Below are positions 10,301-26,700 of a stretch of DNA of 64,000 nt, piece after piece. This stretch comes from an uncultured Dehalococcoidia bacterium. Its GTDB lineage: Bacteria > Chloroflexota > Dehalococcoidia > Lucifugimonadales > G958296245. Made by a program: the position numbers and the translations under genes. Numbering within the stretch: the first letter of the stretch is position 1; the number at the start of each line of letters is the position of its first letter. The notes beneath the pieces were generated by a model. It searched no databases and was not told where the DNA came from. It worked only from the letters and a program-made list of their open reading frames with translations. The stretch spans positions 372,001 to 436,000 of the forward strand of contig OY282458.1 in NCBI GenBank assembly GCA_958296245.1, written 5' to 3'.

Positions 10301-11782
10301 TCGATGCCGTTCACCCTATTGGCGGTTGGCATCGCTCTGGCAGTGGTGCTCGGCGCCTTCCGGAGCGGCTCCCGAACGCGATGGGACGCGGGCCACGCCG
10401 CGAGGCTGTTGTTCCTCGGCCTCACGGTGGGGGCCCTCAGGGTCCTGAACACGTGGGACTTCCCGACCTACGCGGCGCTCTCGGTGGGAGCCGTACTGCT
10501 TGCCGAGTACTTCGCGCACGGCGGGTGGGGGCTCGCCGTACTGGGGCGGGCGGCAATGGGGGCCGGGTTAGCCATGATCGTAGGGTTCGCCGCGTTCGCG
10601 CCATACCACGTCAGGTACGAGGCGTTCTTCTCCAGCATCGAGGAGACCACCAACACGACCGTCTTATGGCAGTTCCTCGGAATTCACGGCCTGTTCATCT
10701 TCATCATAGGGTCATTTCTGGCATACCAGCTCCGGGGCTGGTGGCTCCCCGCGCTTGCGTGGGTGTGGAGGCGGGTTGGCGGTCGCCCGTCGCAGGCCGC
10801 CGCAAGACGCGCATGGGCGGCGGGAATCGGCGCCCTCCTCGCCGCCGCCGCCGCCTTGGTGGTGGCGGCAGGATGGACCGGCAGCACGATACCCTTCCTG
10901 GCCGCGCTGGCCGTGCCCATCGCCGTGGTCGGCGCGGACGCCATGCGCCGAGGGTCGCCGGACGGGGCCGCGCTGGCCTTTGCGGCTATGGCAATGCTGA
11001 TCGCCGTCCTCTTGGCGGTGGGCCTGGACGTCTTCCGCGTGGAGGGAGACGTGGACCGCATGAACAGCGTGTTCAAGTTCTACCTACACGTCTGGGTCCT
11101 CCTGGCGCTGGCGGCGGCATATCTGCTCTGGCGTATGCGGTACGGCTGGGGGATCCGGTTGCCGCGCGGCTGGCCCAGGGGCGTATGGACGGGCAGCCTC
11201 CTCGTTCTGCTGGCCGCCGCCGCCGTGTACCCCGTGCTCGGGACGCGGGACCGCCTGCGCGACCGGTTCGACGGCGCCGCAACCCCCCTGACGCTGAACG
11301 GCGCCGCATTCATGGAGGACGCCGTGTACTGGGACCAGGGCGGGTTGATCGCGCTTTCCGACGACCTGCAGGCGATAGAGTGGCTCAAGGGCGCCGCCGG
11401 CGGGCGGGCGAACGTAGAGGGGTCCCCCGTCGTGCTCGAAGCGCAGACGCCTTCTTACAGATGGGGCGGGCGGGTCTCAGTGTACACGGGGCTGCCTGGG
11501 ATACTCGGCTGGAGCTGGCACCAGACGCAGCAGAGATGGGACTACCGCTCTGAGGTGGCGCGGCGGATCGAGGACGTGGACAGGGTGTACGAGACCGCGA
11601 GCCGCGATGAGGCCCTGGAGATACTGAGGCGCTACGGCGTCGAGTACGTCTACGTTGGGGAGGTGGAGCGGCTCTACTACCCCGAAAGCGGCCTCGCCAA
11701 GTTCGAAGACGGCCTCGGCGGCGCACTGGACCGCGTGTACGACAACGCCGGGGTGACGATCTACCGCCTCAGGCCCGGCTAG
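7316..11782 (+). CDS. Giant membrane protein: GT39/PMT-like half fused to a DUF2298 (YYY) half
   Basis: A 1488-residue polytopic membrane protein. The N-terminal half (about 20-640) resembles the GT39/ArnT-type lipid-dependent glycosyltransferases: a hydrophobic helix, then an acidic loop ending PHPDERAIL, and many membrane segments. The second half (about 700-1480) is the Chloroflexi/archaeal DUF2298 domain, with the diagnostic INYYYWGQ (three tyrosines, 858-860), DLHAHL and NTWDFPTYA. It probably transfers a sugar to a lipid or protein across the membrane, by analogy with the fold. The promoter puts the -10 element nine bases before the ATG. Fusion of the two halves is stronger than a frameshift artefact because the frame is continuous. 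Confidence 0.8.
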   Translation: MMKVKRPAWLTGLAARDPLAALALAAVIGLALALRLYGLDWDRGYSFTPHPDERAILMTVGEMGAPSISTFFDADASPWNPRRFDYGSVPFYLLKAVQLLHSALPLDALHDLRVTGRAISGLADTCTVALVYLLGSRIYGRREGLLAAALVATAVIHVQLSHFYATDILLALFSVATLCALLGVARTGSVRLSALAGVFVGLGMSTKISQAPIYLAFATAHLMYLFAATHAGPGSRSGEPDQSGTRERLRTAVTGLITGLAVSVATFAIAEPYAFLDWQRFMANVVEQSEMVQRIRDYVYTLQYVDTPAYWYQVQQLATWGLGWPLGIAAWGGLLYAALRGMRLGAGLVYLAAGWGAPAAILLYSSGMGAIILASLIALAALLATLPLRSPQSRACVLLLSWVVPYLLIVGAFEVKFLRYMIPVVPFLVLFGARMAFALWDRLTPGRPALSLLLALGLAALVGATGFYGAAYASTYRQPHTAVRAAQWINSHAPEGAVLLKEHWEESLPNLGRYEVRELPMYERDDRGKIERLAEELAGADYVVFYSNRLYGTIPRLPERYPLSGEYYRLLFSGGLGYELARVETGYPQLAGVAFVHDTLGRPGLPYTELPAGAALPIRLGFADESFSVYDHPVVLVLENTARYGADSIRRRIEGSYAVGVEASGGPPGPMLTAGEVEAQRAGGTWTAIVRPGILADRWPVAAWLLLIQGVGILTLPIAFAVLSPLADRGYLLAKPLGLLLVGLAVWLLASLRWVSFSADSVALCLAVLFAVSTALMVMRRREIVGMVARHWKALLLAEAVFLVAFLSLVALRMANPDLWHPFRGGEKPMDFAYLNAVVRSSYMPPYDPWFSGGFINYYYWGQFLVATLVRATGIDTAVAYNLAVPTFFAMTVGGAYSVVYNLAEATRRGGTPASRWPSALAGITGAIFVAVLGNLDGAAQVAQGVWRALLRNMPFGEFDFWRSSRMMGPDPPGHEITEFPFFTFLLADLHAHLTSMPFTLLAVGIALAVVLGAFRSGSRTRWDAGHAARLLFLGLTVGALRVLNTWDFPTYAALSVGAVLLAEYFAHGGWGLAVLGRAAMGAGLAMIVGFAAFAPYHVRYEAFFSSIEETTNTTVLWQFLGIHGLFIFIIGSFLAYQLRGWWLPALAWVWRRVGGRPSQAAARRAWAAGIGALLAAAAALVVAAGWTGSTIPFLAALAVPIAVVGADAMRRGSPDGAALAFAAMAMLIAVLLAVGLDVFRVEGDVDRMNSVFKFYLHVWVLLALAAAYLLWRMRYGWGIRLPRGWPRGVWTGSLLVLLAAAAVYPVLGTRDRLRDRFDGAATPLTLNGAAFMEDAVYWDQGGLIALSDDLQAIEWLKGAAGGRANVEGSPVVLEAQTPSYRWGGRVSVYTGLPGILGWSWHQTQQRWDYRSEVARRIEDVDRVYETASRDEALEILRRYGVEYVYVGEVERLYYPESGLAKFEDGLGGALDRVYDNAGVTIYRLRPG

Positions 11783-11864
11783 CAGGCTGCGGGAAACGCT
11801 TCCGACCTCCCCGCTCGCCGCAGCCGGCGCAACGCAAGCAGACCGGCGTGTTATATTTGAAGTT

Positions 11865-11965
11865 GACTTCCAGAGACTGTTCAGACTCTGTGAAACCCGA
11901 GGGGGTCTAGGAGATTCTCCTTCTGGCAGGGGGTCTGGGGGCTGTGCACCCAGTTACGACTTCCA
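11865..11965. mobile_element. Short MITE-like element with 8-bp target duplication
   Basis: The element spans about 11873-11957 (85 bp). Its left end reads GAGACTGTTCAG and its right end CACCCAGTTAC. Exact copies of GACTTCCA lie on both sides (11865-11872 and 11958-11965), as expected for a target-site duplication. The interior (GGGGTCTAGGAG, CTGGCAGGGGGTCTGGGGGCTGTG) matches the copies at 44.3 and 61.3 kb, so this looks like an internally deleted member of the same family. It codes for nothing. Confidence 0.7.
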
Positions 11966-11988
11966 ACTGACGCGGTAGATGGCGTCCG

Positions 11989-13719
11989 ATGCTGACTAAG
12001 CTCACAATCCGCAATTTCAAGCGCTTCGGCTCGGTCGAGGTCGAGCTCGGGAACCCCGTAGCGTTTATCGGTCCCAACAACTCGGGGAAGACCTCGGCCA
12101 TGCAGGCGTTGGCGCTTTGGGACGTCGGCCTCAAGCGCTGGAACGAGAAGCACTCCGGCAGGAGCGCACCCGGGAAGCGCCCCGGCGTCACCGTCAACCG
12201 CCGCGACCTGGTCGCAATCCCCGTCCCCAACGCAAGGCTCCTGTGGCATGGCCTCCGCGTGCGGGACATTCTCAGGTCGAATGGGAAGCAGCAGACCCGG
12301 AACATGCGGATCGACGTCGTAGTAGAAGGCGTTTCCAAAGGCAAGCGGTGGACCTGCGGGCTGGAGTTCGACTACGCGAACGAGGAGTCGTTCTACTGCC
12401 GCCCGCTGCGTCTGGATGAAGGCAGAATGCCGATTCCACCGGAGGCCGGGGACGTGCAGGTCGCATTCCTCCCCCCCATGTCCGGCTTGGCGGCCACCGA
12501 GACACGCCTCGACCAAGGCGCGGTGAGCGTGCGGGTGGGCGAAGGGCGCACGGCCGAGGTGCTGCGCAACCTCTGCTTCCGTATTCACGAGGAACAGCCG
12601 GAGAATTGGGAAAAGCTGGCGTCGCACGTCCAAGACCTGTTCGGGGCTAACCTCGACCCGCCCCGCTACGTGGAGGAACGGGGCGAGATTGCGATGAGCT
12701 ACCGGGAGCGCGGCGTTACGCTCGACCTCTCCTCCGGCGGGCGCGGACTACAGCAGACGATGCTGGTCTTGGCGTACATGTACGCCAATCCGGGGGCGGT
12801 GCTCCTGCTGGACGAGCCGGACGCGCACTTGGAGATACTCCGGCAGCGCCAGACATACCGGTTGATCGCGGAGGCGGCCTCCGAGAGCGGAAGCCAGATC
12901 ATCGCGGCTAGCCATTCCGAGGTGATATTGAACGAGGCCGCGGACAGGGACATGGTGGTCGCATTCGTGGGGCGCCCGCACCGCATCGACGGCCGGGGAA
13001 GCCAGGTGCTGAAGGCGCTCAGGGAGATCGGCTTCGAGCACTACTACCAGGCGGAGCAGACGGGCTGGGTCCTCTATCTGGAGGGCTCGACTGACTTGGC
13101 CGTATTGCAGGCGTTTGCCCGCCGTATCGGCCACTGCGAGGCGGCCCGCGCGCTGGAGCGGCCCTTCGTGCATTACGTCGGGAATACCGCGGCGGCAGCG
13201 TTGAGCCACTACCACGGCCTCAGGGAAGCGCTCCCGGACCTGAAGGGGGCGGCGCTCTTCGACCGCAGCGACGCCGGAACGCCGGCAACCAGCCAGGTTG
13301 TGTGTCTAGTCTGGAGGCGCCGTGAGATCGAGAACTACCTATGTTCCCAGGCGACGTTGGAGGCTTACGCGCGGGCATCTGCGGTAGCAGACGTTCCCGA
13401 ACCTCTGTTTGCGGTAGCCGAAGCCGGCCGGCGGTTGGACGCGATGCGAGAGGCTGTTGCCGAGGTGCGGGACGCTATGAGAACCCTGGACAAGGGATCC
13501 CCATGGGACGCTGACGCCAAGGTGAGCGACGACTTCCTGGCGCCTCTCTTCCGCGCCTACTTCGAGAAGCTGGACCTGCCGAACCTGATGAACAAGAAGA
13601 ACTTCTACGAACTGGCTGAGCACGTACCCGAGGATGAAATCGACCCCGAGGTTGGCGAGAAACTGGACGCGATCGCGCGTGTTGCGAGGAGCGCGAGTCC
13701 CGGCGTGAGCGAGTATTGA
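11989..13719 (+). CDS. OLD-family ATP-dependent endonuclease (ABC ATPase + TOPRIM)
   Basis: A 576-residue protein of the overcoming-lysogenization-defect family. The N-terminal SMC/ABC-type ATPase has Walker A GPNNSGKT (28-35), the signature-like LSSGGRGLQQ and Walker B LLLDEPDAHLE, then the His-loop region AASHSEVI. The C-terminal TOPRIM nuclease starts with LYLEGSTD and continues AALFDRSD and RRREIENYL, the metal-binding pattern of OLD nucleases. Members act on DNA, often in phage defence. There is no UvrD-like helicase next to it, so it is not a Gabija pair but resembles a class 1 OLD. It sits between two small transposon-like repeats. Composition is like the host genes. Confidence 0.82.
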   Translation: MLTKLTIRNFKRFGSVEVELGNPVAFIGPNNSGKTSAMQALALWDVGLKRWNEKHSGRSAPGKRPGVTVNRRDLVAIPVPNARLLWHGLRVRDILRSNGKQQTRNMRIDVVVEGVSKGKRWTCGLEFDYANEESFYCRPLRLDEGRMPIPPEAGDVQVAFLPPMSGLAATETRLDQGAVSVRVGEGRTAEVLRNLCFRIHEEQPENWEKLASHVQDLFGANLDPPRYVEERGEIAMSYRERGVTLDLSSGGRGLQQTMLVLAYMYANPGAVLLLDEPDAHLEILRQRQTYRLIAEAASESGSQIIAASHSEVILNEAADRDMVVAFVGRPHRIDGRGSQVLKALREIGFEHYYQAEQTGWVLYLEGSTDLAVLQAFARRIGHCEAARALERPFVHYVGNTAAAALSHYHGLREALPDLKGAALFDRSDAGTPATSQVVCLVWRRREIENYLCSQATLEAYARASAVADVPEPLFAVAEAGRRLDAMREAVAEVRDAMRTLDKGSPWDADAKVSDDFLAPLFRAYFEKLDLPNLMNKKNFYELAEHVPEDEIDPEVGEKLDAIARVARSASPGVSEY

Positions 13720-13747
13720 GCCTCTCGCAGGCCGTGGGTCAAGCCTT

Positions 13748-13917
13748 CCTCCGCGCTAACCGTTCAGCCTCTATGAATTGAACCGGGCCGCTCCACTCCT
13801 CGACGGCCCGGCGCATATGCAAGGACTTAGGATTCTTCGTCGCTGAGCTCCTCAGAATGACAAACGGAGGAGCGCGCCCCTGCACCCCTCACCAAGTCTG
13901 AACAGTTACCCTCTGGG
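13748..13917. mobile_element. Older, degraded MITE-like element
   Basis: The left end CTAACCGTTCAGCCTCTATGAA (13756 on) and right end CTCACCAAGTCTGAACAGTTAC (to 13909) match the terminal inverted repeats of the family at 44.3 and 61.3 kb. Flanking octamers CCTCCGCG and CCTCTGGG agree at 6 of 8 positions, as a decayed target duplication would. Inside is a half copy of the TGTCATTCC-type repeat (about 13826-13862). Confidence 0.5.
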
Positions 13918-13949
13918 CTGCCGTCTGCCCCGAAACGCGTCCGGGGGGC

Positions 13950-13970
13950 TGATATAATCGGCCCCGCATG
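13950..13970 (+). promoter_or_regulatory. Extended -10, leaderless-type promoter of the MFS gene
   Basis: TG-A-TATAAT (consensus TATAAT at 13953-13958) lies nine bases before the ATG at 13968. The start of transcription would fall at the start codon. No -35 hexamer or ribosome site is evident. Confidence 0.6.
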
Positions 13971-15233
13971 TACCCCGGCCATCAAAACCGTCAGCCCCGC
14001 CGCCAAAGTACCCCCTTCCACGGCTGGCGATTCGCAGCGATAGGCGCGACCATGAACGGCCTCATCGCCGGCCTCTACGGCAGGGGTTTCAGCGTCTACT
14101 TCCTCGCCCTGGCCAACGACCTCAGGCTCAGCCACGCCTCAACGTCCTTGGTCTTCGGTCTGTCGGCGCTGGAGAGCGGCCTGCAGAGTCCTATCACCGG
14201 GTACTTCACGGACAAGTGGGGCCCCAGGATCATGATGGTGATCGGGGCTGTGCTGGCCGGCGTCGGCTTCCTTCTGCTCCCGCTCGCCAACAGCTACGCC
14301 ATGTTCCTTCTAATCTTCATAGGCGTCCTCTCGCTGGGAGTCAACGCGGGGTTCCACAACGGCTCGGCGGCCATAGTCACCCGGTGGTTCATCCGCAACC
14401 GCGGGACGGCCTTCGGCGTCATCTCGATAGGCATTGCCGTCGGCGGCAGCGTTCTGACGCCGGTCGTTGCCTACATCGTCATCAACTACGATTGGCGGGC
14501 AGCGTCGGTCGCGTCGGGCATTATGATATTGCTGGTAGGCGTCCCCCTGTCGGCTCTGGTACGGAACTCCCCGGAAGACCTCGGCCAGACGCCCGACGGC
14601 GACGGCGGCCCCGGCTCGCGCCGCCGCAGGCAGACCCCATCCGAATACGGGGTGCGGGAAGCGATTCGGACGTGGTCGTACTGGCTGCTGGCGGTCGGCA
14701 TGACCCTGAGAATAGCGGCGGGCAGCGGCATCATAGTGCATATAGTGCCGTTGATGGTCTGGAAGGGTCTGGGCGAGGGTTCGGGCGGGGTGGTGATTGC
14801 GTCCAGCTCGCTGGCGGCAATCGTGACGCGCTTCTTCATGGGCTGGCTGGGAGACCGTTGGTCGAAACGCAAGCTGGTAGTCGCCGCCATGCTGGTCGGC
14901 GCGGGCAGCCTGATCTTCCTGCTATACGCGCCGGGCAAGCTGCCTCTGATGATCGCGTTCGGCGTCATGCTCTCGATAACGGACGGGGGCGCAGGGCTGA
15001 CCTGGGCCATGATAGGCGACTATTTCGGGCGCTCGTTCTACGCGACTCTCAGAGGAGGCATCAATACGATGGTGAGCCTCGGAGCGCTGGCAGCCCCTGT
15101 CGCCGCGGGCAGGGCTTTCGACGTTACGGGGAGCTACTTCTGGGTCCTCGTCTCCTTTGCCGTAATATACGCCCTGGCAGCTGCCGTCTTCCTGGTCCTC
15201 CGAGGCCCGCAGCGCTTGGGAGACGGGGGTTGA
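13968..15233 (+). CDS. MFS transporter (monocarboxylate / OFA-like)
   Basis: A 421-residue major facilitator with about 12 membrane helices in the inner membrane. The loop between helices 2 and 3 reads YFTDKWGPRIMM, and the matching loop in the second half reads GWLGDRWSKRKL; these are the MFS signature loops. The pattern and length fit the oxalate/formate and monocarboxylate carriers, so an organic acid is the likely substrate. Its 3' end is duplicated as a 62-bp direct repeat 4.6 kb further on, marking the left edge of the accessory island. A second carrier of the same type is at 41.7 kb. Confidence 0.85.
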   Translation: MYPGHQNRQPRRQSTPFHGWRFAAIGATMNGLIAGLYGRGFSVYFLALANDLRLSHASTSLVFGLSALESGLQSPITGYFTDKWGPRIMMVIGAVLAGVGFLLLPLANSYAMFLLIFIGVLSLGVNAGFHNGSAAIVTRWFIRNRGTAFGVISIGIAVGGSVLTPVVAYIVINYDWRAASVASGIMILLVGVPLSALVRNSPEDLGQTPDGDGGPGSRRRRQTPSEYGVREAIRTWSYWLLAVGMTLRIAAGSGIIVHIVPLMVWKGLGEGSGGVVIASSSLAAIVTRFFMGWLGDRWSKRKLVVAAMLVGAGSLIFLLYAPGKLPLMIAFGVMLSITDGGAGLTWAMIGDYFGRSFYATLRGGINTMVSLGALAAPVAAGRAFDVTGSYFWVLVSFAVIYALAAAVFLVLRGPQRLGDGG

Positions 15234-15244
15234 AGGCGGGCTAA
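15183..15244 (+). repeat. Direct repeat A, copy 1 (3' end of MFS gene)
   Basis: These 62 bases cover the last codons of the MFS gene and its stop. They recur at 19845-19906 with only two mismatches. The two copies bracket the four-gene GHKL/PP-loop operon. Confidence 0.9.
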
Positions 15245-15286
15245 AGCCCCACCGGGGGATAGGACAGCGCACTGTTGAACCCCCCA

Positions 15287-15295
15287 TGTTATACT
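15287..15295 (+). promoter_or_regulatory. Extended -10 promoter of the GHKL operon
   Basis: TG-T-TATACT is the only good -10 element upstream of the operon. It lies about 70 bases before the first start codon, just inside the left direct repeat. A GGAGGTG ribosome site (15355-15361) precedes the start. Confidence 0.5.
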
Positions 15296-15368
15296 TGTCC
15301 CGGCTGACGCCCAAACGAATTGAGCCCTTCCACTTGTCGGGGCATCTCAAAATTGGAGGTGTGAATTG

Positions 15369-17262
15369 GTGAATAGGCCTAAATGGCAATTTCCCCGGAA
15401 TGAAGCCAATGAAAACGAAGGCCCTCATGATGTGGGTGTTACGCACTTTATGGCCAATAGAGAAGAGAGCATAATCAGGGAAACCATTCAGAACTCGCTG
15501 GACGCACAGTCCGATCCTAATCGACCCGTAGAGGTGGAATTCAAGATCGATAGTATTCCCACCTCTACCTTTGACGCCTCAGAGCTTGCCGACGCACTCC
15601 GCGCAGCAGCAGATTCACCACACAACAACGACAAGGAATACGAGGAGCAATTCAACAGGGCGCACCGGTTACTCAGACGTAATGAGGAAGGGTCCTTAGA
15701 CATCCTGAAGATAACTGACAGTAACACAACGGGAGCTGATGATGAACCTCGACCAAATGGAGCACCTAGCAAGTGGGAAGCGCTAACCAAAGGTACTGGC
15801 TCAAATGAGAAGGATCAGCGTGATGCAGCCGGTTCTTACGGCCTGGGAAAGTTTGCCGCCTTTGCTGTGACGGATCTTAGAACAGTCCTATATTCAGTGG
15901 CATATAAGTCTAACTCGCAGTTGCACCGTAGGTTCCAAGGTAAGGCTATCCTGGTGTCTCATGAGAGAGGAGGTAGACGTTTCCGAAGAATTGGTTATCT
16001 TGGCGCGGCAGACTTTTGGCCTCTAAAAGATTCGGAAGTGCCTCGTCCTTTCAGGCTACAAGCCCCTGGCACTGCGCTATATATTCTTGGCTACGAGGCA
16101 AAGAGTGGCTGGAAACAAACCGGAGTAAATGCAGCGATAAAGCACTTCTTCCACGCCGTCGTTCATGGCAAATTAAAGGTAGCCTTCGACATGGACGATG
16201 TTAAGGAGGTGGCTGCTGACAACGTATTAGACCTTGCTACTTCAAACAAGGTTGACGAAAAGACGTCCAGATTTGTCAAAGTTTCTGGCTTAGAGCCAGT
16301 TGGACATACTGCGATCAATGGAATAGGTAAGGTATCCTTACGCATTCAGATATATGAAGACTCACCGGGTAGAAGGGAGATTGCCCTCATAAGAGACGCC
16401 GGTATGATGATCACCGACAATGCCAAGGATATGAATATACGCGGGCTTGGGCGTTTCCCACAGCATTGGAAAGGATTCACAGCCATAATAGAATGCCTCT
16501 CTTTTGGGAAACCATCTCTGTTACGGGACTCCGAGTCGCCCCAGCACAACAAAATCTCGCTGGACTACATAGTAGACCCAACCCGAAAGACTGAAGCAAA
16601 ACAGCGCCTTGCTGAATTGGGCCAATGGTGCTACGGGCGTATCGCTGAACTAGCTGAACCTGTACTGTCCGAGACAGAAAATGCCCAAGAAGTGGCGCAA
16701 TACTTGCATGTGGAAGACGAGGGAGAGCAGGGAAAGCGAGGCAATGCCAGAGGTGAACATGACCGCGAAGGCGTAACAGTAACGTCGCCCTACCAGTCCA
16801 ATCAGGCGCCGCCGCACATTCGACTACGGGGAAGCAGGTCTCGCGCGCGTGTAGTCACGCCTGGATCTGGAACGGCCAGCGGAGGCTCCGACGGCCCTGT
16901 TAACCCCGAGCCACCTAGTCGCTCTGGACCTAGGCGGCCGCGTACCGTTACACCCGTACCAACAAGCATTTGCCCATCAACGTTTTCGTACCGGAGGCCG
17001 GAGCCCCACGCATTCCGTTATCGTTGCGTTCGATGACCCTGGCGAATCGCTCCAAGATGTTCGGCTAATCGCGGTGGGGGAGGATGGACAAGATGTGCCA
17101 GTGGGTATCCGCGAGGCCTACGCAGGAGATGTCAAACTTGATGTGAATGGGGACAAGATTGCACTGTTGGATATCAAAGACGCCACTCGCTGGACTGTAG
17201 AGTTCTCTACCCGCGAGCCGGTTGCAGGTAGGACATACTATCTCAGGGGAACGGCCAAATAA
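15369..17262 (+). CDS. GHKL-type ATPase, first gene of a candidate defence operon; two apparent frameshifts
   Basis: The ATPase domain is GHKL (Hsp90/MutL/MORC type): N box ETIQNSLDAQ (about 39-48), metal-binding turn KITDSN (about 116-120) and ATP-lid GSYGLGKFAAF (about 155-165). A long middle region and a Pro/Gly/Arg-rich linker follow. The uninterrupted frame ends at 17036, but the natural C-terminus, a small beta-rich domain (SVIVAFDDPGESLQDVRL ... RTYYLRGTAK), lies in another frame up to 17262. Adding one C at 16973-16975 and one C at 17004-17007 joins all parts into about 631 residues. Either the gene is recently broken or the sequence has homopolymer errors. The start is GTG 15369 (or TTG 15366), after GGAGGTG. 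The next gene begins 2 bases after the restored stop. I cannot assign a named system. Confidence 0.72.
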
Positions 17263-17264
17263 AA

Positions 17265-18137
17265 ATGAAGTATGAAGCCAAGCGCAATTACCTTTACCCT
17301 GTGCTTCGTCCGAACTCGGACGACTACAATGATGCAAAGTTGTCAACATTTGTTCAGACAAGTGTTGACGGACAAGATATACGTGTTACCGTCTCCTTTA
17401 AAATAGGTGAGCCATCCATACGACAGCAGATCACTACTGGGGACGCACGTTGCATCGCCATGTTGTACTGTCGAGAGACCCTGCATAGGGAAACGCTGAT
17501 CGCTCCCCCAGGAGAGCTTGAGTTGGAAGAGGTGATTCCATCTCAACTACTTGTCAACGACGTGGAAGTGAACCCGGCTATTGTTGCCTTCAATAGCGTC
17601 GACCATCCTACCCGCACAGCCCACAGAGAATACGGCGGCGAAGCGATATACATCGGTAGATGGCAACCATTGGCGACCGATCAGACATGGCGGTTTAAGG
17701 CCAATGCAGTCCGGCGGCCAACGAAGAGTATCTTCAATCTTTCCCCAGACAACGATCTACCGCTTGACTTGTTCGATGTCGATGTGGACCCAAGTCAACG
17801 ATACCTTACTATAAGAGCCAACGAACAGACGTTAGAGCAATTCAAGGGTATACGTTCAAAGGAATACTTGACTATACCGTCGGTGTACATGAACGCGTTG
17901 TGTGAGGCTTTGTCACAGCTAAAGCAGACTGGTATAGACAACGCAGAATCCATTAGCGGAGGATGGGTGGATTGTATTATAACTAACCTAAGAGAACACG
18001 GTATTAGGCTAGGCGATCCTGAACAACAAAATGGCAGCCACACCGTCTTTCATGCAGCCCAACTGCTGTTAGAGAAACCCTTAGGCAAACTGATCCAACG
18101 GGATGGCTGGGACAATGATATGGAGCAAGGGCTATGA
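17265..18137 (+). CDS. Unknown protein, second gene of the GHKL operon
   Basis: A 290-residue soluble protein that I do not recognise. It begins MKYEAKRNYLYPVLRPNSDD and looks beta-rich in its first 200 residues (alternating segments such as IRVTVSFKIGEPSI and RCIAMLYC), with a more helical end (ALCEALSQLKQ). There is no signal peptide, membrane segment or clear catalytic motif. It starts 2 bases after the restored stop of the GHKL gene and its TGA overlaps the next ATG (ATGA), so it is translated as part of a tight operon and is probably a partner of the ATPase. Codon use is less GC-biased than that of host genes. Confidence 0.7.
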   Translation: MKYEAKRNYLYPVLRPNSDDYNDAKLSTFVQTSVDGQDIRVTVSFKIGEPSIRQQITTGDARCIAMLYCRETLHRETLIAPPGELELEEVIPSQLLVNDVEVNPAIVAFNSVDHPTRTAHREYGGEAIYIGRWQPLATDQTWRFKANAVRRPTKSIFNLSPDNDLPLDLFDVDVDPSQRYLTIRANEQTLEQFKGIRSKEYLTIPSVYMNALCEALSQLKQTGIDNAESISGGWVDCIITNLREHGIRLGDPEQQNGSHTVFHAAQLLLEKPLGKLIQRDGWDNDMEQGL

Positions 18138-18883
18138 TCGAGATAGTCAACGAAAGTGGATACAAGGCGTTACGGACTCTCGCCCACCGATGTCCAGATC
18201 TTTTCATTTCTCCAGACCCGAATAGATTGCGTGATGAGGTGATTGGTGAGGCCGGCACGGAGGAGGTTTGGCGAGAACCGCTAAAAGTGGAAACCTCGCT
18301 GGAGCCGCTAAACGACGTGTCTGAGCAAGGCCCAGACACCGATGCCCGTTACTCCAAGATCGTACGTGAAGCGCTAGCTGGCATTTCCCTTATCCAAGTC
18401 GTTGATGAGCTGCTATGGGCGTCTATCAACTGCTTTGCCATTGCGCGCTACGTGCCAAAGCGATGGGCAACAAGCAGTATAATCCAACGCGACCCCAGGG
18501 CTTTTGTAGATAGACATTGGCTAAAAGGAGGCCCAGACGGTCGTCAATCCAATGCTGCGGCTAGGTTGTGGTGGCTAGGCGAAATCTCCAAACGTGTCGC
18601 CCGACATTCTAAGTACACCCCTGACCGATTGCTCGACGCCATGGCAAACAATGTAAATCTGTACCATCAGACCCTCGACCGCCGATACCTCATCGCAAAC
18701 CCTAAGCTGGTTGCCGCTATATACGAATGTGCACTCGACGGCAACGATCACTTATTTCAGACGCAGTACGCTAACCAATTGTTCAAGTCTCTCAACGTTC
18801 GAGCAGGGGCACAGGCATTCGACTTGATGGACATTGACGAGCTACGGTCGGTCGTTGAGGATGCCATACCCCCAAAAGAGTGA
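18134..18883 (+). CDS. DUF6339-like protein, third gene of the GHKL operon
   Basis: A 249-residue protein of unknown function. The most conserved-looking part is in the second half: SNAAARLWWLGEISKRVA (about 137-154), then a helical stretch through NLYHQTLDRRYL and a C-terminal acidic helix. Size and the ARLWW motif recall the family called DUF6339; this label is from memory and should be tested. No membrane segment is seen. Start and stop overlap both neighbours (ATGA before, GTGA after), so its product is made in step with theirs. Confidence 0.6.
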   Translation: MIEIVNESGYKALRTLAHRCPDLFISPDPNRLRDEVIGEAGTEEVWREPLKVETSLEPLNDVSEQGPDTDARYSKIVREALAGISLIQVVDELLWASINCFAIARYVPKRWATSSIIQRDPRAFVDRHWLKGGPDGRQSNAAARLWWLGEISKRVARHSKYTPDRLLDAMANNVNLYHQTLDRRYLIANPKLVAAIYECALDGNDHLFQTQYANQLFKSLNVRAGAQAFDLMDIDELRSVVEDAIPPKE

Positions 18884-19743
18884 GCCACCGCTCGAGGCCG
18901 AACACCCCACCCGCGATGCGGGTGATCAGCCTCGGCGGTGGCGTACAGAGCACAGTAATGTGCTTGCTTGCTGAACAAAACGCTTTCGGGATCAAGCCTG
19001 ATTACGCCGTATTTGCCGATACGAAGTGGGAGCCACAGTCAGTGTATGACAACATCAAGTGGCTCCAGTCCCAAGTATCCTTCCCAATCATCACAACCAG
19101 CAACGGGAGGAGTCTGCGTCAGGATGTGGTCGACGGCGTGAACGCTCAGGGTGCCCCCTGGATGACTCTACCGGTGTACCTGTCCGACACCAACGGGGGA
19201 TCTGACGGCATAAACTGGCGCCAGTGCACTAAGAATTACAAACTGGATCCGATCCGTAGAACCATTCAGGAACTTCTAGGAGTACGTCCACGACAGAACC
19301 TTTCCTCCGAAACACACGTTGAAATGTGGCTGGGGATCACCGAAGACGAAGCTCTGCGAGTCAAACCCAGTCGCAACTGGTGGATTAGCAACCGCTATCC
19401 GCTAATAGACGACCTCCCATTGACACGGGAGCAGTGCCAAGAGTGGTTTGCAGAACATTATCCTGGGCGAAATCTCACTAGGAGTGCTTGCGTAGGTTGC
19501 CCGTTTCGCAGCTCCCCGAGTTGGCTTGACGTCAAGAGAAGTGAACCCGCTCTCTACTCGGAAGTCGTGGAGATAGATGCACTACTCCGATCGGAGGAGC
19601 ACAATTCGAGACGAATGTTTAGGAAGCGCGCCTACCTGCACCACCGGCGCATACCGCTTGAAGATGCTCTACGGCTTGACGAAATTGAACTGCAAGAGAA
19701 CAATCCGTTCATCAATGAGTGTGAGGGGCATTGTGGATTGTGA
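18880..19743 (+). CDS. PAPS-reductase-like PP-loop ATPase, fourth gene of the GHKL operon
   Basis: A 287-residue member of the adenine-nucleotide alpha-hydrolase (PP-loop) superfamily, related to phosphoadenosine phosphosulfate reductase and to DndC-type enzymes. ISLGGGVQST (15-24) is the PP-loop, ADTKWEP the second strand motif, and WRQCTKNYKLDPIRR and ACVGCPFRS carry three cysteines typical of this phage/defence-associated group. It probably adenylates a substrate, perhaps for sulfur transfer, but the DNA-sulfur role of DndC cannot be assumed. The GTG start overlaps the previous stop (GTGA); an internal ATG at 18916 lies just before the PP-loop and is an alternative. Confidence 0.75.
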   Translation: MSHRSRPNTPPAMRVISLGGGVQSTVMCLLAEQNAFGIKPDYAVFADTKWEPQSVYDNIKWLQSQVSFPIITTSNGRSLRQDVVDGVNAQGAPWMTLPVYLSDTNGGSDGINWRQCTKNYKLDPIRRTIQELLGVRPRQNLSSETHVEMWLGITEDEALRVKPSRNWWISNRYPLIDDLPLTREQCQEWFAEHYPGRNLTRSACVGCPFRSSPSWLDVKRSEPALYSEVVEIDALLRSEEHNSRRMFRKRAYLHHRRIPLEDALRLDEIELQENNPFINECEGHCGL

Positions 19744-19751
19744 TCACCCTG

Positions 19752-19835
19752 TGAGGAGGTGAGCCGATGCCCATGCACAATCCGCCCCATCCCGGCGAGA
19801 TAGTGAGGCAGGAGTGCCTTGAGCCGCTGGGCCTG
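19752..19835 (+). repeat. Direct repeat B, copy 1 (5' end of higA)
   Basis: These 84 bases are identical to 22374-22457, which hold the ribosome site and first 23 codons of higA. The copy ends abruptly and is joined to a piece of the MFS gene. Confidence 0.92.
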
Positions 19836-19895
19836 CAATTAGCCGCCGTCTTCCTGGTCCTCCGAGGCCCGCAGCGCTTGGGAGACGGGGGCTGA
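19767..19895 (+). pseudogene. Chimeric remnant: higA 5' end fused in frame to MFS 3' end
   Basis: A 42-codon open frame starts with the first 23 residues of HigA (MPMHNPPHPGEIVRQ...) and continues, after QL, with the last residues of the MFS carrier (AAVFLVLRGPQRLGDGG). A good GAGGAGGTGAG ribosome site precedes it. It marks a recombination joint and is not expected to have HigA function because the helix-turn-helix is missing. Whether the fusion peptide is made is unknown. Confidence 0.75.
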
Positions 19896-19906
19896 AGGCA
19901 GGCTAA
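19845..19906 (+). repeat. Direct repeat A, copy 2 (MFS 3' end)
   Basis: Second copy of the 62-bp MFS end, 60 of 62 bases identical to 15183-15244. It is directly joined to repeat B copy 1. From here to the end of the ABC exporter gene (20017) there is about 110 bp without a recognised feature. Confidence 0.9.
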
Positions 19907-20016
19907 GCGCACCTGGGGCCGCCTGCTTCCGCGCACAATCGACTGGCCCTTGAGAGCGACCCTCAACGACGTCTGCTCGTATGAGAATCGTTCTACAGGA
20001 GTGGTCTCTCCGCAGC

Positions 20017-21831
20017 CTACACGTCCGACCGGTCTTTGCTCTGAGCCGCGAACTGCTCCTGGAATAGCCGCCGGTACAGATCACACCTGTCAAGCAACTC
20101 GTCATGGCGGCCCGCATCCACAAGTCGGCCTTCGTCTAAGACCAATACCACGTCCGCCGAAAGGATGGTCGAAAGTCTGTGAGCAATCACGACCGTCGTG
20201 GACTCCCTCAAGAGGGGCATCAGAGCCTCTCGTATCGCACGCTCCGTAACAGAGTCCAACGAAGATGTAGGTTCATCCATTATCAGGACACTGGGTCGTT
20301 TCAGAGCCACCCTCGCAATGGCAAGCCTCTGTCTTTCTCCACCAGACAGTCTGTACCCGAATTCACCCAACATGCTGTCGTAGCCGTGTGGTAGTTTCTC
20401 CACAAGTTCGTGCAGTTGGGCGGCTTTGCAGGAAGCTATCAACTCTTCGTCGTCGGCATCGGGCTTTGCGACAAGCATGTTTTCTTTAACGGTCGCATTG
20501 AAGACTATATTCTCCTGCGGCACGACGCCGACATGTTGGCGAAGGGATGCCAGACGAACGTTGCGCAGGTCGTGTCTGTCGATTTCAATGCAACCCGAGG
20601 TGGGATCGTAGAATCGGAGCATCAAGTAGGTGACAGTAGTCTTTCCCGAGCCGCTAGGACCGACCAACGCTATGAGTTGTCCGGCTGGGATCTGGAAAGA
20701 CAAGTCCTTGAGTATGGGCGTTCCGGTCTCATACTCAAAAGAGACATCCTTAAAGGAGACGTGCCCCTGGATACTAGACAGGTCTACGGCATCCTCGGAG
20801 TCTTCTATTTCCGGCGTGAGGTCCAGCCATGCGAATACCCTTCGGAATGGAGCCAGCGACCCCATGAAGTTGGCGTTCAGGTTAGCCAGAGAAGATACGT
20901 GCGATGCCAGCATCGCGGACAACCCTATGTAGGCGGTCAACTTGCCTAAGCTAAAGTCTCCGTCGATAACCTTCGATCCTCCGTAAATATAGATGATGGC
21001 GGCGATGAGAATCGGGAAGACCACTAGCGTAATATGGACGCTCTGCATGGTCATGCTCTGCGCGACAGACAACTTCAACAATTCTGACGCTCCGTCGGCA
21101 AATCGCTTCGAGTTGAGTCTTTTGTCGTAGCCAAGTCCATTGATCAGCATGAAGCCATTTATATTGAGTCTCTCGAAAGTAAAGGCGACCAGACGATCGA
21201 GGTGGGAGAGCAGCCTGCCCTCGATCTTCTGGTTCCGTTGACCTAGGAAGATGCTGGCGCCAAGAATCAATGGCAACACCGATACGCACAGTAGAGCGAG
21301 CGTCCAGCTCCATATGAACATGAACACTAGAGCGCTGATCAGTAGCACGACAGCGCCGAAGACGTCGTAGAAAGCAACGCCTACAGTAGCTTGAATGCTC
21401 GATGTGTCATTCCACATCCTGGACGATATCGCTCCTGAGCTGGTCCGCACGAAGAAACCATGGGACTGACGCTGCAGCGACTCGAATAGCATCACACGTA
21501 CAGAACGGACCACACGTTCACCCGCGAGCGCAAGACAATAGCTTCTCAGGGCCTCTAGCAGCAGGATGCACAGCGCGAGGCCCAACATGCTCCCGGCGAG
21601 GATGATTAAGAGACGTCTGTCCCCGCCTATGATCGCCCGGTCGATTATCAGGCTCACCAGTACGGGCTGTGCCAGCCACAAGAGCGCCACTGCCAGGCCC
21701 ATGATAGAACCGACCAGCAGAACCCGCCAATGGCAAGCCACTATTCTCAGGACGCGGGATACGGTTGGCCAACTTGGGTGTCCGTCACGGCTCCCTAGCC
21801 TACCGTGCAGGCCGTCATCGGACGATGTCAT
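20017..21831 (-). CDS. ABC exporter, fused membrane and ATPase domains
   Basis: A 604-residue half-transporter that would act as a dimer in the inner membrane. Residues 30-330 hold about six membrane helices. The nucleotide-binding domain has Walker A GPSGSGKTT (391-399), Q-loop VVPQEN, signature LSGGERQRLAIARVAL, Walker B VLIMDEPTSSLDS and H-loop IAHRLST. ATG at 21831 is preferred to the in-frame ATG at 21852, because its ATGA overlaps the stop of an upstream ATP-grasp remnant. The family exports lipids, drugs or peptides; the remnant next to it points to peptide export. GC is lower than in the flanking host genes. Confidence 0.88.
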   Translation of the reverse strand: MTSSDDGLHGRLGSRDGHPSWPTVSRVLRIVACHWRVLLVGSIMGLAVALLWLAQPVLVSLIIDRAIIGGDRRLLIILAGSMLGLALCILLLEALRSYCLALAGERVVRSVRVMLFESLQRQSHGFFVRTSSGAISSRMWNDTSSIQATVGVAFYDVFGAVVLLISALVFMFIWSWTLALLCVSVLPLILGASIFLGQRNQKIEGRLLSHLDRLVAFTFERLNINGFMLINGLGYDKRLNSKRFADGASELLKLSVAQSMTMQSVHITLVVFPILIAAIIYIYGGSKVIDGDFSLGKLTAYIGLSAMLASHVSSLANLNANFMGSLAPFRRVFAWLDLTPEIEDSEDAVDLSSIQGHVSFKDVSFEYETGTPILKDLSFQIPAGQLIALVGPSGSGKTTVTYLMLRFYDPTSGCIEIDRHDLRNVRLASLRQHVGVVPQENIVFNATVKENMLVAKPDADDEELIASCKAAQLHELVEKLPHGYDSMLGEFGYRLSGGERQRLAIARVALKRPSVLIMDEPTSSLDSVTERAIREALMPLLRESTTVVIAHRLSTILSADVVLVLDEGRLVDAGRHDELLDRCDLYRRLFQEQFAAQSKDRSDV

Positions 21832-22010
21832 TTTATTACCGCACGCATGCACGAGATTGAAGGAAGTCCATCACGTATCTGGACGACAATCGGCGTGTCC
21901 TGATAGAGAGGAGTGACAATCATGTCAATCGCACCATAAACTAAGCCCAACACGGATGTGAGCCTCAGAATCAACTCTTCAACATCCGAGGGGAGGTCCA
22001 TACGCCTCCA
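21828..22010 (-). pseudogene. Truncated ATP-grasp (graspetide-type ligase) remnant
   Basis: A 57-codon frame from the ATG at 22001 reads MDLPSDVEELILRLTSVLGL followed by VYGAIDMIVTP. This closely resembles the C-terminal part of RiPP-type ATP-grasp ligases (LGL.fGAiDlivtPdG.yvFLEvNP), and the bases just before the ATG add EWRR, as in those enzymes. After IVTP the match is lost, and a stop lies just upstream of EWRR, so only a piece remains. Its TGA overlaps the ATG of the ABC exporter. The family recall is from memory; the stretch is short. Confidence 0.5.
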
Positions 22011-22062
22011 TTCTCAGCTTATCATAATGGCTGCCGGCAGCCGCTAAGGGATACCTTGTCTA

Positions 22063-22100
22063 TTGACAAGCGACAGCCGACACGGTAGTATGCCGACGTG
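22063..22100 (+). promoter_or_regulatory. Promoter of higBA
   Basis: TTGACA (22063-22068), a 17-base spacer and TAGTAT (22086-22091) form a good sigma-70-type promoter. The GTG start of higB follows six bases after the -10, so the message would be leaderless. HigA normally represses its own promoter here. Confidence 0.65.
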
Positions 22101-22376
22101 ATCTTATCGTTCAAGCATCATGGGCTGCGGGCACTCTACGAAGGGCGCGGGCCGCGTCGAGTCGCCCCTGAACACGTTGGAAAGCTGACTCGTATTCTTG
22201 CCGTACTCGACCAAAGCCATGCTCCCAAGGATATGGATTTGCCCGGGTTACGGCTGCATATGCTCGTTGGAGAATTGAGGGGCCGCTACGCCGTCTCCGT
22301 ATCGGGGAATTGGCGGGTGACTTTCAGGTTCGAGGGCAGTCATGCCGTCGACGTCGATTACGTAGACCACCACTGA
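22098..22376 (+). CDS. higB: HigB-family toxin (RelE superfamily)
   Basis: A 92-residue toxin of a type II toxin-antitoxin pair, predicted to cleave mRNA on the ribosome. HHGLRALYEGRGPRRV near the N-terminus, LPGLRLHMLVGELRGRYAVS in the middle and NWRVTFRF with the final VDYVDHH are characteristic of the HigB/plasmid-killer family. It starts with GTG immediately after its promoter. The antitoxin gene follows 12 bp downstream, the usual toxin-first order of higBA. Confidence 0.9.
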   Translation: MILSFKHHGLRALYEGRGPRRVAPEHVGKLTRILAVLDQSHAPKDMDLPGLRLHMLVGELRGRYAVSVSGNWRVTFRFEGSHAVDVDYVDHH

Positions 22377-22457
22377 GGAGGTGAGCCGATGCCCATGCAC
22401 AATCCGCCCCATCCCGGCGAGATAGTGAGGCAGGAGTGCCTTGAGCCGCTGGGCCTG
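22374..22457 (+). repeat. Direct repeat B, copy 2 (start of higA)
   Basis: The 84 bases around the start of intact higA, identical to 19752-19835. Together the two copies bracket the ABC exporter, the ATP-grasp remnant and higB. Confidence 0.92.
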
Positions 22458-22685
22458 ACAGTCACGCGTGCGGCCCGAGGGCTGGGGGTAACCCGGCAGG
22501 CGCTGTCCGACCTCGTGAACGGGCAGTCCGGCGTATCGGTCGAGATGGCTCTTCGGCTGTCCAAGGCGTTCGGCTCTACGCCGAGGACCTGGCTCGGAAT
22601 GCAGATGGCCTACGACCTATGGCGCGCCAGTGAACGAGCCGAGCATATCGAGGTGGAGAGCTTCACGGCGTCCAACCCGGCGTAG
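22389..22685 (+). CDS. higA: HigA-family antitoxin (XRE helix-turn-helix)
   Basis: A 98-residue antitoxin and autorepressor. It begins with the family's HPGEIVRQECLEPLGLTVT, followed by a helix-turn-helix (AARGLGVTRQALSDLVNG) and the usual ALRLSKAFGSTPRTWLGMQ. It neutralises HigB by binding it and represses the operon. A GAGGAGGTGAG ribosome site lies just upstream and spans the higB stop. The 5' part is duplicated at 19.75 kb. Confidence 0.93.
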   Translation: MPMHNPPHPGEIVRQECLEPLGLTVTRAARGLGVTRQALSDLVNGQSGVSVEMALRLSKAFGSTPRTWLGMQMAYDLWRASERAEHIEVESFTASNPA

Positions 22686-22909
22686 AGGCACGGTCGGCAT
22701 TGAGACGGCACTGCGGGGCCTCTTACATTACTCAACTATCGGCGCCGACTGTGCTATGCCACTCAGCAACGGGACAGACCCACAAATACGTCTGGATACT
22801 GAGAAGACCATTGGCTGGGCGGACATGCCCATGGAGTCTCCTATGGTAGAGGTGTTGTACGATGAGGCAGTATTACGAGCGTGCGATGACCCACTTGGGC
22901 TTGAGGCCC

Positions 22910-23521
22910 ATGGCAAAGTTCTTGTACGATGAGGACGTATTACCTTCGGTAATTAAGTTGGCTAAAAGTGCAAGATCGCAGCTTGTCCTAGTTTCTCCCT
23001 ACAACGACTTCTCCGTGAACTTGCATGACGTTGTTGTGCAGATGGCCAAGCGCGTCTGTGTCACCGCCGTGTGTCGCAGCGATCGGAAACAGAAAGAAAA
23101 GGAGCATCTCGATTGGTTGATCGGCCTCGGAGTCCGGGTATATCTGGTAAAACGGCTCCACTCCAAGATATACCTGAATGAGTCACAAGCCATCGTCACG
23201 TCAATGAACTTGCTCAAAGAATCCGCAGTAGACTCAAAGGAGGTCGCGCTGCGCGTCCAGGGCACCGAAGAGATCAAAGAGATCAACAATTACATCAGCC
23301 GCTTGCTAGCTAACGCAGAGCCCTACTCAGGGTATTGCATCAGGTGTGGGAACGGCATCTCCTTCGAACCAGAGCGGCCACTATGTGGCGATTGTTATAA
23401 AAAGTGGGCCCACTACAGAAACCCCGACTATCCGGAACGACACTGCCATCGCTGTGGCCTCAAGTCGCGAACCTCCCTTGCCAAACCACAGTGCCTCGAA
23501 TGCTTCAAGGAGACACGTTAA
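22910..23521 (+). CDS. PLD-like protein with C-terminal zinc ribbons
   Basis: A 203-residue protein. Residues 1-135 resemble one phospholipase-D-like nuclease module: LVLVSPYNDF, then RLHSKIYLNE (the HxK core), SMNLLKESAVDSKEVAL. The C-terminal third has four CxxC pairs (CIRCG, CGDCY, CHRCG, CLECF), so two zinc ribbons. Such fusions often act on nucleic acid, but only one HxK is present, so activity would need a dimer. ATG 22910 is chosen because MAKFLYDEDVL opens the domain; a longer frame starts at 22862. Codon use is AT-richer than that of host genes. Confidence 0.65.
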   Translation: MAKFLYDEDVLPSVIKLAKSARSQLVLVSPYNDFSVNLHDVVVQMAKRVCVTAVCRSDRKQKEKEHLDWLIGLGVRVYLVKRLHSKIYLNESQAIVTSMNLLKESAVDSKEVALRVQGTEEIKEINNYISRLLANAEPYSGYCIRCGNGISFEPERPLCGDCYKKWAHYRNPDYPERHCHRCGLKSRTSLAKPQCLECFKETR

Positions 23522-23554
23522 GAGCGTGTCTCCGAGGGTGTTGCCCCGCCAACC

Positions 23555-23664
23555 TGTCATTCCGAGCGCAGGGAGGAATCTAGGGACCTTGCCCTACAGA
23601 CGACGTTGTCTTGCGAGCAGCGGCTTTAGATTCCTCACTCTGCTGCGCTCCGTTCGGAATGACA
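23555..23664. repeat. Palindromic intergenic repeat (TGTCATTCC family)
   Basis: Two inward-facing arms begin TGTCATTCCGAGCGCAGG and, on the other strand, TGTCATTCCGAACGGAGCG; each continues into GAGGAATCTA. The RNA could fold into a long hairpin. Single arms occur at 13826-13862 and 44148-44184. It lies between convergent genes and may also terminate transcription. Confidence 0.65.
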
Positions 23665-23757
23665 GTGCGCCTAGCGCTCTCCGTTCACAAGACCAAGGCC
23701 GCGCCCTCAACAGCCGAATAGTGCAACGAACTTCAGAGTCACGATACTAGCAGGACC

Positions 23758-26700
23758 CTATGCGCTGCCGGACAGGTACGTCCCCATGGGCTCTACGCTG
23801 TAGTCGGCGGAGCCGTTGGAGAGGCTCTCGACCGCTGCGCGGGCGGTGTCTAGGGACGTGAAGCAGGGGATGCGGCGCTCGGTGGCGGCCCGCCTTATCT
23901 TGAAGCCGTCTTGGAGCGCCTCGCGGTCGAACGTGACCGTGTTGATGACGGCGTCCACGGTGCCGTCCGTGATGACGTCCACCACGTTGGGGTGCCCTTC
24001 GGAGAGCCGTTTGGGGACGGAGACGACCTCCATTCCCAGGGCGCGTATCATCTCCGCGGTGCCTCCCGTGGCGTATAGGCCATAGCCTGCCGCGTCGAGG
24101 GCGCGGGCTATCTCTATAGACTCGGCCTTGTTCCGATCGGCGATGCTGAGGAGGATCGACCCTCTGGGGGGCAGCACGAGCCCGGCGGCCGCCAGCGCCT
24201 TGGCCGCGGCGGGCCTGAATTCGTAGTCGATGCCCATCACCTCGCCGGTGGACTTCATCTCAGGCCCCAGGTAGGTGTCCACGCCGGCCAGCTTCGACAT
24301 GGAGAAGACGGGCGCCTTGACGCCCACGACCTTCTGCTTCTCCCACAGGCCGCCGGAGTAGCCCTGCTCGGCGAGGCTCCGGCCCAGCATGGCGTTCACC
24401 GCAAGGCGGACCATCGGGACGCCGGTCACCTTGGATATGAAGGGTATCGTGCGGCTGGAGCGCGGGTTCACCTCCAGCACGTAGACCTCGGTCTTGACCG
24501 CGCCGCCCGCGTTCAGGGGGGTCCGGTAGGCCGGCCCTCCCAGCACGACGTATTGGATGTTCATGAGGCCGCGCACCTGGAGTGCGAGCCCGATGCGGGT
24601 CGTATAGTCGACGACGGTGTTGACCTCCTCCTTCGTCATGGTGAGGCCGGGATAGATGGCCATCGAGTCGCCGCTGTGTACGCCGGCCCGTTCCACGTGC
24701 TCCATCATCCCCGGTATCAGCACCGATTCCCCGTCGCAGACGGCGTCCACCTCGACCTCCCTGCCCTCGAAGTACTTGTCGATCAGGACACGGCGCCCCT
24801 CTCCCGCCGCGAACGCGTTGGAGATGAACCTGATCAACTCGGTGGGGTTGCGGACGATCTCCATTGCCCTGCCGCCCAGCACGTAGCTGGGCCTGACGAG
24901 CACCGGGTATCCCACGTCGTCCGCCACGGACAGGGCCTGCTCTATGCTCGCGACGGCTGCGCCCGGGGGGTTCGGGATGCCGACGCGGGCCAGGAAGTCC
25001 TCGAATAGCTGCCGGTCGGACGCGGTGTCGATGGACTGGGCGGTGGACCCCAGGATGGGGAGGCCTGCCCTGTCCATGGACTGGGACAGGTTTATCGCGG
25101 TCTGCCCGCCGAACTGGACCATCGTGGGAGGGTATCCCTCCCCCTCTCCACGGTCCGGGAGCGCCTCGTTCTCGATGACGTCGCGCACGCTCTCGTCGTC
25201 GAGCGGCTCGAAGTAGAGGCGGTCGCTGGTGTCGAAGTCGGTGGAGACCGTCTCCGGGTTGGAGTTGATCATGACGCTCTTGATGCCCGCGTCCCGGAGC
25301 GCCCATGCGGCATGCACCGAGCAGTAGTCGAACTCGATACCCTGTCCGATGCGGATGGGGCCGCTGCCCACCACGACGGCCTTGGGTTCCGTCAGCGGCT
25401 CTGCCTCGTTCTCCTGCTCGTAGGTGCTATAGAAGTAGGGGGTCACGGCTTCGAACTCGGCGGCGCACGTGTCGACCATCTTGTAGACGGGCCTCATGCC
25501 CAGGTCTTGGCGCAGCGACCGCACCTCCTCGGACGTCCTGTCCGTGAGCTTGCCTATCTTTTCGTCCGGAAAGCCAAGCCGCTTGGCCCTGCGCAGCAGC
25601 GCGGGCGTGAGGTTCCGGGAGAGCAGCGCTGCTTCCATGGAGGCGATTGTGCCGAACGCTCGCGTGAACCACGGGTCGATGCCGGTCAACCGGGAGATGC
25701 GCTCCGGCGCCGCGCCGCGCCTGAGGGCCATCAGCAGCGCCCACAGCCTCTCGTCGTTGGGATGAAGCGGCGCCCTGGACCAGGCTGGCGCGTCCTCTCC
25801 TTCCTCGCCGCCGGCCGCGAGCCAGTCCGGGTCTTCCCAGAGCAGGGAGCGGTTGGTGATCTCCAGGGAGCGCACCGCCTTTTGGAAGGCCGCCTCGAAC
25901 GAGCGGTCGATGGCCATCACCTCGCCGGTGGCCTTCATCTGCGTGCCGATCAGCCGGTCTCCGCCGGGGAACTTGTCGAAGGGCCAGCGCGGTATCTTCA
26001 CCACGCAGTAGTCGAGCGCCGGCTCGAAGGCCGCCAGCGTCTGCTGCGTGACCGCGTTGGGTATCTCGTCCAGCCGCTTCCCGACGGCGATCTTCGCCGC
26101 CACGCGGGCGATGGGGTAGCCGGTCGCCTTGGACGCCAGGGCGGAACTGCGGCTGACGCGGGGGTTGACCTCGATCACGTAGTAGGGGCTTTCGGCGCGG
26201 CCCCGCCCGGGGAGGGACTCGGCTACCACGTCCCCCGGCTCCAGCGCCAGTTGGACGTTGCAGCCGCCCTCGATGCCCAGGGCGCGGATGATCCGCAGGC
26301 TCGCCGACCGGAGCATCTGGTACTCCTTGTCGGACAGCGTCTGGCTGGGCGCGACGACGATGCTGTCCCCGGTGTGGACCCCCATCGGGTCGATGTTCTC
26401 CATGTTGCACACGGTGATGCAGGTGTCGGCGGCGTCGCGCATCACCTCGTACTCGACCTCCTTCCAGCCCACCAACGACCTCTCGATGAGCACCTGGCCG
26501 ATGGGACTGGCGGCGAGTCCGCCCGCAACGATCGTTTCGAACTCCTCCCGGGTGTCGGCGATGCCGCCGCCGGTGCCGCCGAGGGTATAGGCGGGCCTGA
26601 CGACGAGGGGCAGCCCCAGCTCCTCGGCGGCCTCAGCCGCCTTGTCCATGGAGCTCACCGTTGCGCTGGGAGGCGCGGGTTCGCCGATGTTCATCAATAG

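Follow-up and report, generated by a model that had tools for sequence, protein, structure and literature searches.

We identified, in the genome of an uncultured Dehalococcoidia bacterium, an operon whose sequence is on balance best explained as a mobile, restriction-modification-like PDC-M33 (paraMORC2) unit in which a PP-loop enzyme takes the place of the C5-cytosine methyltransferase. The genome is a single 2.69-Mb contig (98% complete), and the 64,000-bp stretch analyzed here, called the window, covers its bases 372001-436000. The genes of the operon and the duplicated sequences around them are as follows, in window coordinates.

15179..15244, + strand: 66-bp direct repeat, left copy, which is the 3' end of the MFS gene
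15369..17262, + strand: gene 1, M33A, a paraMORC2-like GHKL ATPase, frameshifted (PADLOC PDC-M33A, 1.2e-71; ExxxH motif; frame break mapped against L083)
17265..18137, + strand: gene 2, M33B, a predicted beta-sandwich and helical protein (PADLOC PDC-M33B, 6.1e-29; AlphaFold2 model, pLDDT 88)
18134..18883, + strand: gene 3, M33C, a DUF6339 protein predicted to be all-helical (Pfam DUF6339, 9e-21; PADLOC PDC-M33C, 3.4e-20; model pLDDT 92.6; PP-loop fusions in ten relatives)
18880..19743, + strand: gene 4, a PP-loop protein (PAPS-reductase-like, SspD-related), the proposed DNA-modification subunit (Pfam PAPS_reduct, 2.4e-6; phrog_424, 4e-40; invariant cysteines; hhalign to SspD)
19752..19835, + strand: 84-bp duplicate of the start of higA, identical to 22374-22457, near the right end of the cassette
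19841..19906, + strand: 66-bp direct repeat, right copy, 95% identical to the left copy

An initial annotation, made from the sequence alone, had described a four-gene operon with ATGA and GTGA overlaps. Genes 2 to 4, at 17265-18137, 18134-18883 and 18880-19743, are all intact and overlap in this way. Each of the four genes is real, although gene 1 does not run in a single frame: its ORF (15369-17036) closes at a stop, and the C-terminal part, which is conserved among relatives, lies in another frame at about 16930-17262, ending 2 bp ahead of gene 2. Using as alignment reference the intact M33A of a related locus (L083; 631 amino acids, 54% identity), gene 1 followed one frame to about 16898 and the other from about 16930, which places an indel in a Gly/Ser/Pro linker. 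The indel may be either a real mutation that leaves a pseudogene or an assembly error. Because M33A is also in two pieces in two loci from other assemblies (L084 and L117) and forms a single intact frame in two more (L082 and L083), assembly indels or decay are as likely as a programmed frameshift. With M33A frameshifted, the window copy may be inactive.

The GHKL motifs reported for gene 1 are present (N-box RETIQN and ATP-lid GSYGLGK), and the N-box and the GxxGxGK lid are kept across M33A relatives; a generic Pfam GHKL profile matched gene 1 only weakly, at an E value of 0.03. The suggestion that the operon fits no named defense system proved half right. Genes 1-3 match the PADLOC candidate system PDC-M33, with the PDC-M33A, B and C profiles matching adjacent genes in the same order (15369-18883), and gene 1 corresponds to paraMORC2 as described by Iyer, Abhiman and Aravind (2008, PMC2292703). 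These authors describe paraMORC2 as a GHKL family with an ExxxH motif and place it in operons of the restriction-modification kind that also encode DNA methylases and Vsr. Both residues of this motif, E389 and H393, were found in 54 of 54 aligned M33A sequences, 52 of which have the form ExPxH. The window operon thus has the same subunits A, B and C, in the same order, as the PADLOC-DB 2.0 phage defense candidate, but adds a fourth, the PP-loop protein, which has no M33 profile match. Neither PDC-M33 nor DUF6339 was named in the open-license papers searched, and the open-license literature held no description of M33 combined with a PP-loop enzyme, although one may exist elsewhere.

Structure prediction with AlphaFold2 suggested an Ig/FN3-like sandwich plus helices for M33B. 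Its structural matches were to common beta-sandwich folds alone (Z about 8), and such matches to a model show no function. M33C was predicted to have an all-helical fold, which we do not claim as new; its model had no significant match in the PDB. Neither model matched a known nuclease fold, no nuclease was recognized in M33A-C, and M33A and gene 4 had no solved relative by sequence.

Gene 4 carries the SLGGGVQST and cysteine motifs attributed to it, and cysteines 116, 204, 207 and 285 are invariant in 31 sequences of its family. Compared with SspD, it gave an hhalign probability of 97 (E = 6e-11), and SspD was its sole PADLOC match (1e-10), with no M33 profile matched. True SspD proteins score far above this (6e-91 to 2e-134). 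Gene 4 is, as judged from these alignments, a homologue of SspD, but a distant one.

We scanned the M33A alignment against 84,980 species and obtained 32 loci from Chloroflexota (Dehalococcoidia) and other phyla. Most of these relatives have the order C5-methyltransferase, M33A, M33B, M33C and, in some, Vsr, with the methylase just upstream and Vsr often downstream. This methylase type occurs in Chloroflexota, Actinomycetota, Acidobacteriota, Pseudomonadota, Gemmatimonadota and Poribacteria. Plasmid copies of M33 likewise adjoin methylase and Vsr genes, and additional genes of known systems lie near some copies: a type II restriction enzyme beside two plasmid copies (Planococcus and Arthrobacter), a Shedu gene beside one plasmid copy and AbiG genes near one Lactococcus copy. 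A search of plasmids with M33C gave no match. No DNA methylase lies in or beside the window operon, and the two C5-methylase genes of its genome are about 0.9 and 2.3 Mb away.

M33 with a PP-loop was found at 16 loci in two phyla, six with a separate PP-loop gene and ten with an M33C.PP fusion; many of these loci were found via PP-loop queries, and the counts are therefore not frequencies. Four of them (L068, L069, L116 and L117) were reached by M33 queries alone. The window operon is of the separate type, with the PP-loop gene directly after M33C and neither methylase nor Vsr. No methylase or Vsr occurred at any of the 16 PP loci and no PP-loop at any of 38 other M33 loci, counts that are not independent since the exchange may have been a single event on the tree. 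A search of the window's order with gene 4 returned 20 near-full-length PP-loop genes, 12 of which lie in M33 operons (five separate after M33C, the window included, and seven fused behind M33C); the others precede a helicase-GHKL-PLD module (n = 6), stand apart (n = 1) or are disrupted (n = 1). Elsewhere in the phylum, we found two further M33C.PP fusions (L068 and L069), and one actinobacterial genome (Acidimicrobiales) holds a methylase-type locus (L021), a separate PP locus (L117) and a fused PP locus (L116). The gene set therefore recurs as a unit, beyond chance: the order A-B-C-PP is present in five other genomes, and together with the ten fusions this upholds the earlier proposal that gene 1 has specific partners in genes 2 and 3 and that the PP-loop protein belongs to the unit. 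Chance placement of a PP-loop gene beside M33 is ruled out by the fusions and the recurrence.

A tree of M33A resolved the separate PP loci and the fused PP loci as one fully supported clade each; the two clades were joined with moderate support (83) next to a methylase clade, a grouping for which one exchange between methylase and PP-loop suffices. Each M33-linked type was also a single clade in the PP-loop tree, where phage and Ti-plasmid enzymes were separate from the M33-linked and helicase-GHKL-PLD-linked ones. Because the separate type was closer in that tree to the helicase-GHKL-PLD type than to the fused one, the data do not prove that PP-loop and M33 were joined just once. M33A and the PP-loop co-diverge, with strongly correlated distances (Mantel r = 0.92; 0.95 among fusions).

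The operon lies in a region of distinct composition, with a GC content of 0.50-0.58 over 15.0-24.0 kb of the window compared to about 0.66 outside and a third-position GC within the operon of 0.50-0.61 compared to 0.83-0.91 for the MFS and carB genes. This agrees with the AT-richer island described previously, but the OLD-like and MFS genes are host-like in composition and fall outside it. HigBA and a PLD-like gene lie near the operon, as had been noted; the latter (22862-23521) is low in GC and encodes a PLD-like protein of 219 residues whose tail may be a zinc ribbon, and an imperfect 37-bp repeat (22840 and 22907) is found near it. Close to the island is an OLD/GajA-like AAA ATPase gene (11989-13719; AAA_15, 3e-17), probably an older resident because of its host-like composition. 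No Rfam match was found within 11700-24000; terminator-like sites were no more numerous than in shuffled sequences, and promoter-like sites were only slightly above shuffles. The 66-bp repeat brackets the operon and has exactly two copies genome-wide, with no third. Other cassettes of the separate type have unrelated surroundings in each genome and, where compared, a GC content below that of their surroundings. Given unrelated genomic sites, low GC and the repeat pair around the window copy, the unit looks mobile, as first proposed.

Several M33-PP loci are linked to modules of phosphorothioate systems or to other restriction-type genes. Downstream of two fused operons (L093 and L097) come PbeA (2e-170 and 3e-167) and PbeC (1e-56 and 1e-52), an arrangement that a third (L094) has as judged from ORF order alone and not from a profile scan. 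In L068, a GmrSD protein that has both domains is encoded after the fused operon, and a GmrSD_N (DUF262) gene lies alongside in L087. Four-gene sets of PP-loop, SF2 helicase, GHKL ATPase and PLD occur in Chloroflexota at six loci (L086:7372-12173, L088, L089, L091, L098 and L099). On plasmids (L124, L125 and L127), the helicase-GHKL-PLD module has true Ssp genes as neighbors: SspC and SspD in Mesorhizobium and Pleomorphomonas, SspD and SspE in Hymenobacter. The module may be a restriction partner, as yet without a name, of phosphorothioate systems. We rejected its identification as SspFGH because SspH is FtsK-like (PMC8092258). One locus (L096:4129-12620) has M33A, M33B, an M33C.PP fusion, helicase, GHKL and PLD in one operon, uniting both systems around one PP-loop domain.

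As to sulfur supply, cysteine desulfurases are encoded in ten of ten M33-PP genomes tested; such an enzyme is expected in most bacteria, so its presence simply permits the idea of a sulfur mark. The separate-type operons contain no cysteine desulfurase, SspB/C or DndD/E gene, and SspB and SspC are absent from the window operon and its immediate neighbors. DndE had no match in 16 genomes, in a search where no control genome gave a signal either.

Compared with Ssp (SspABCD with SspE or SspFGH; PMC8092258), the window operon has a PP-loop protein distantly homologous to SspD, and the partner modules of related operons overlap, but the window operon lacks SspA, SspB and SspC and has a GHKL core. 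The Dnd and CxC ABC ATPase systems (PbeABCD; PMC6459918 and PMC10853773) resemble M33 in that their core alternates between phosphorothioate enzymes and cytosine methylases, and M33-PP is followed by PbeA and PbeC at two loci (L093 and L097); however, their core ATPase is of the ABC type, whereas that of M33 is GHKL. We rejected filing the operon directly as Ssp or Dnd because SspB/C and DndD are absent from it. In paraMORC2 operons, the element common to the window branch is the GHKL ATPase with ExxxH, the relatives being tied to a DNA cytosine methylase and Vsr; the window branch has a PP-loop enzyme without methylase or Vsr, and the available text of PMC2292703 does not mention a PP-loop.

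A different division of labor is possible, though less likely: M33A-B-C could be a core that scans by means of ATP and delivers the methylase or PP-loop enzyme to its sites, as proposed for DndD-DndE, with restriction left to modules outside the core (PbeA/C, helicase-GHKL-PLD, GmrSD, Vsr or type II enzymes). The fusion of M33C to the modification enzyme, the M33B and M33C models with no nuclease fold match and the separate restriction-type modules after fused operons at four loci (L068, L093, L096 and L097) all fit such a core, for which there is a published parallel in the DndDE/CxC cores found with either phosphorothioate enzymes or cytosine methylases (Rakesh, Aravind and Krishnan, PMC10853773). 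Related GHKL families, however, have been argued to belong to the restriction side (PMC2292703). Moreover, the separate-type cassettes (the window, L082, L083, L085 and L117) have no recognized restriction module alongside, so that M33A-C with a scanning role would there be an orphan modification system.

Relatives of gene 4 are also found on their own in phages, and next to ArdC or ParB on Ti plasmids, and the PP-loop family is therefore not bound to one role. The viral contigs searched contained one M33A fragment and no PP-loop relative. On Ti and rhizobial plasmids, gene 4 relatives lie directly after ArdC (anti-restriction) or beside ParB-like genes (L051:5033-6822, L053:5036-6900, L052 and L131), and these may possibly be a means for mobile DNA to mark itself. 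On a Streptomyces plasmid (L132:3486-5677), the gene right behind a PP-loop relative encodes a DNA cytosine methyltransferase. The substrates of PP-loop enzymes are diverse, and this diversity, like the stand-alone relatives in phages and plasmids, would suit an enzyme that produces or detects a nucleotide signal, or that controls the M33 complex in the course of infection, with no DNA marking. We consider this improbable, as the PP-loop protein fills the operon role vacated by a DNA methylase and adjoins, or has modules in common with, phosphorothioate systems.

Least probable is that the window copy is a functionless, decaying remnant of a mobile element with gene 4 as a passenger: the frameshift in gene 1 and the partial duplicates on the unit's flanks agree with decay, but genes 2-4 are intact, the four-gene set is intact and co-diverging in diverged genomes and the lone indel may be a long-read assembly error.

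We thus favor a mobile restriction-modification-like unit with a PP-loop enzyme in the methylase position. The locus had been proposed to be an anti-phage or DNA-modification module; a restriction-like role is the best reading of it, and the literature searched held no demonstration of anti-phage activity for any member. Mechanistically, the PP-loop enzyme would activate a position in host DNA with ATP, and a sulfur-type mark would then probably be made with sulfur supplied by a cysteine desulfurase of the host itself, its chemistry most likely that of a backbone sulfur as for SspD and DndC. M33C would dock the PP-loop enzyme, as their frequent fusion suggests. M33A, as a GHKL ATP-driven clamp, would survey or loop DNA together with M33B and M33C, and the direction of discrimination would be against DNA without the mark, with M33A-C acting alone or with an added nuclease module. 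An anti-phage function is likewise an inference.

More generally, and more tentatively, M33ABC may be a GHKL core with an exchangeable modification slot that holds either a C5-methylase or a PP-loop enzyme. The PP type could then be a DNA-marking immune class without SspB/C or DndD/E, having a phosphorothioate or other mark and restriction modules in common with phosphorothioate systems. If right, this would join MORC-like ATPases in restriction-modification operons with sulfur-based DNA marking, so far separate fields, and would describe a compact system of three or four genes whose core was retained while its modification enzyme was swapped. It would also give a concrete chemistry to seek in existing long-read data, and would amount to a natural experiment in the reading of DNA marks by GHKL ATPases, with relevance to the eukaryotic MORC proteins.
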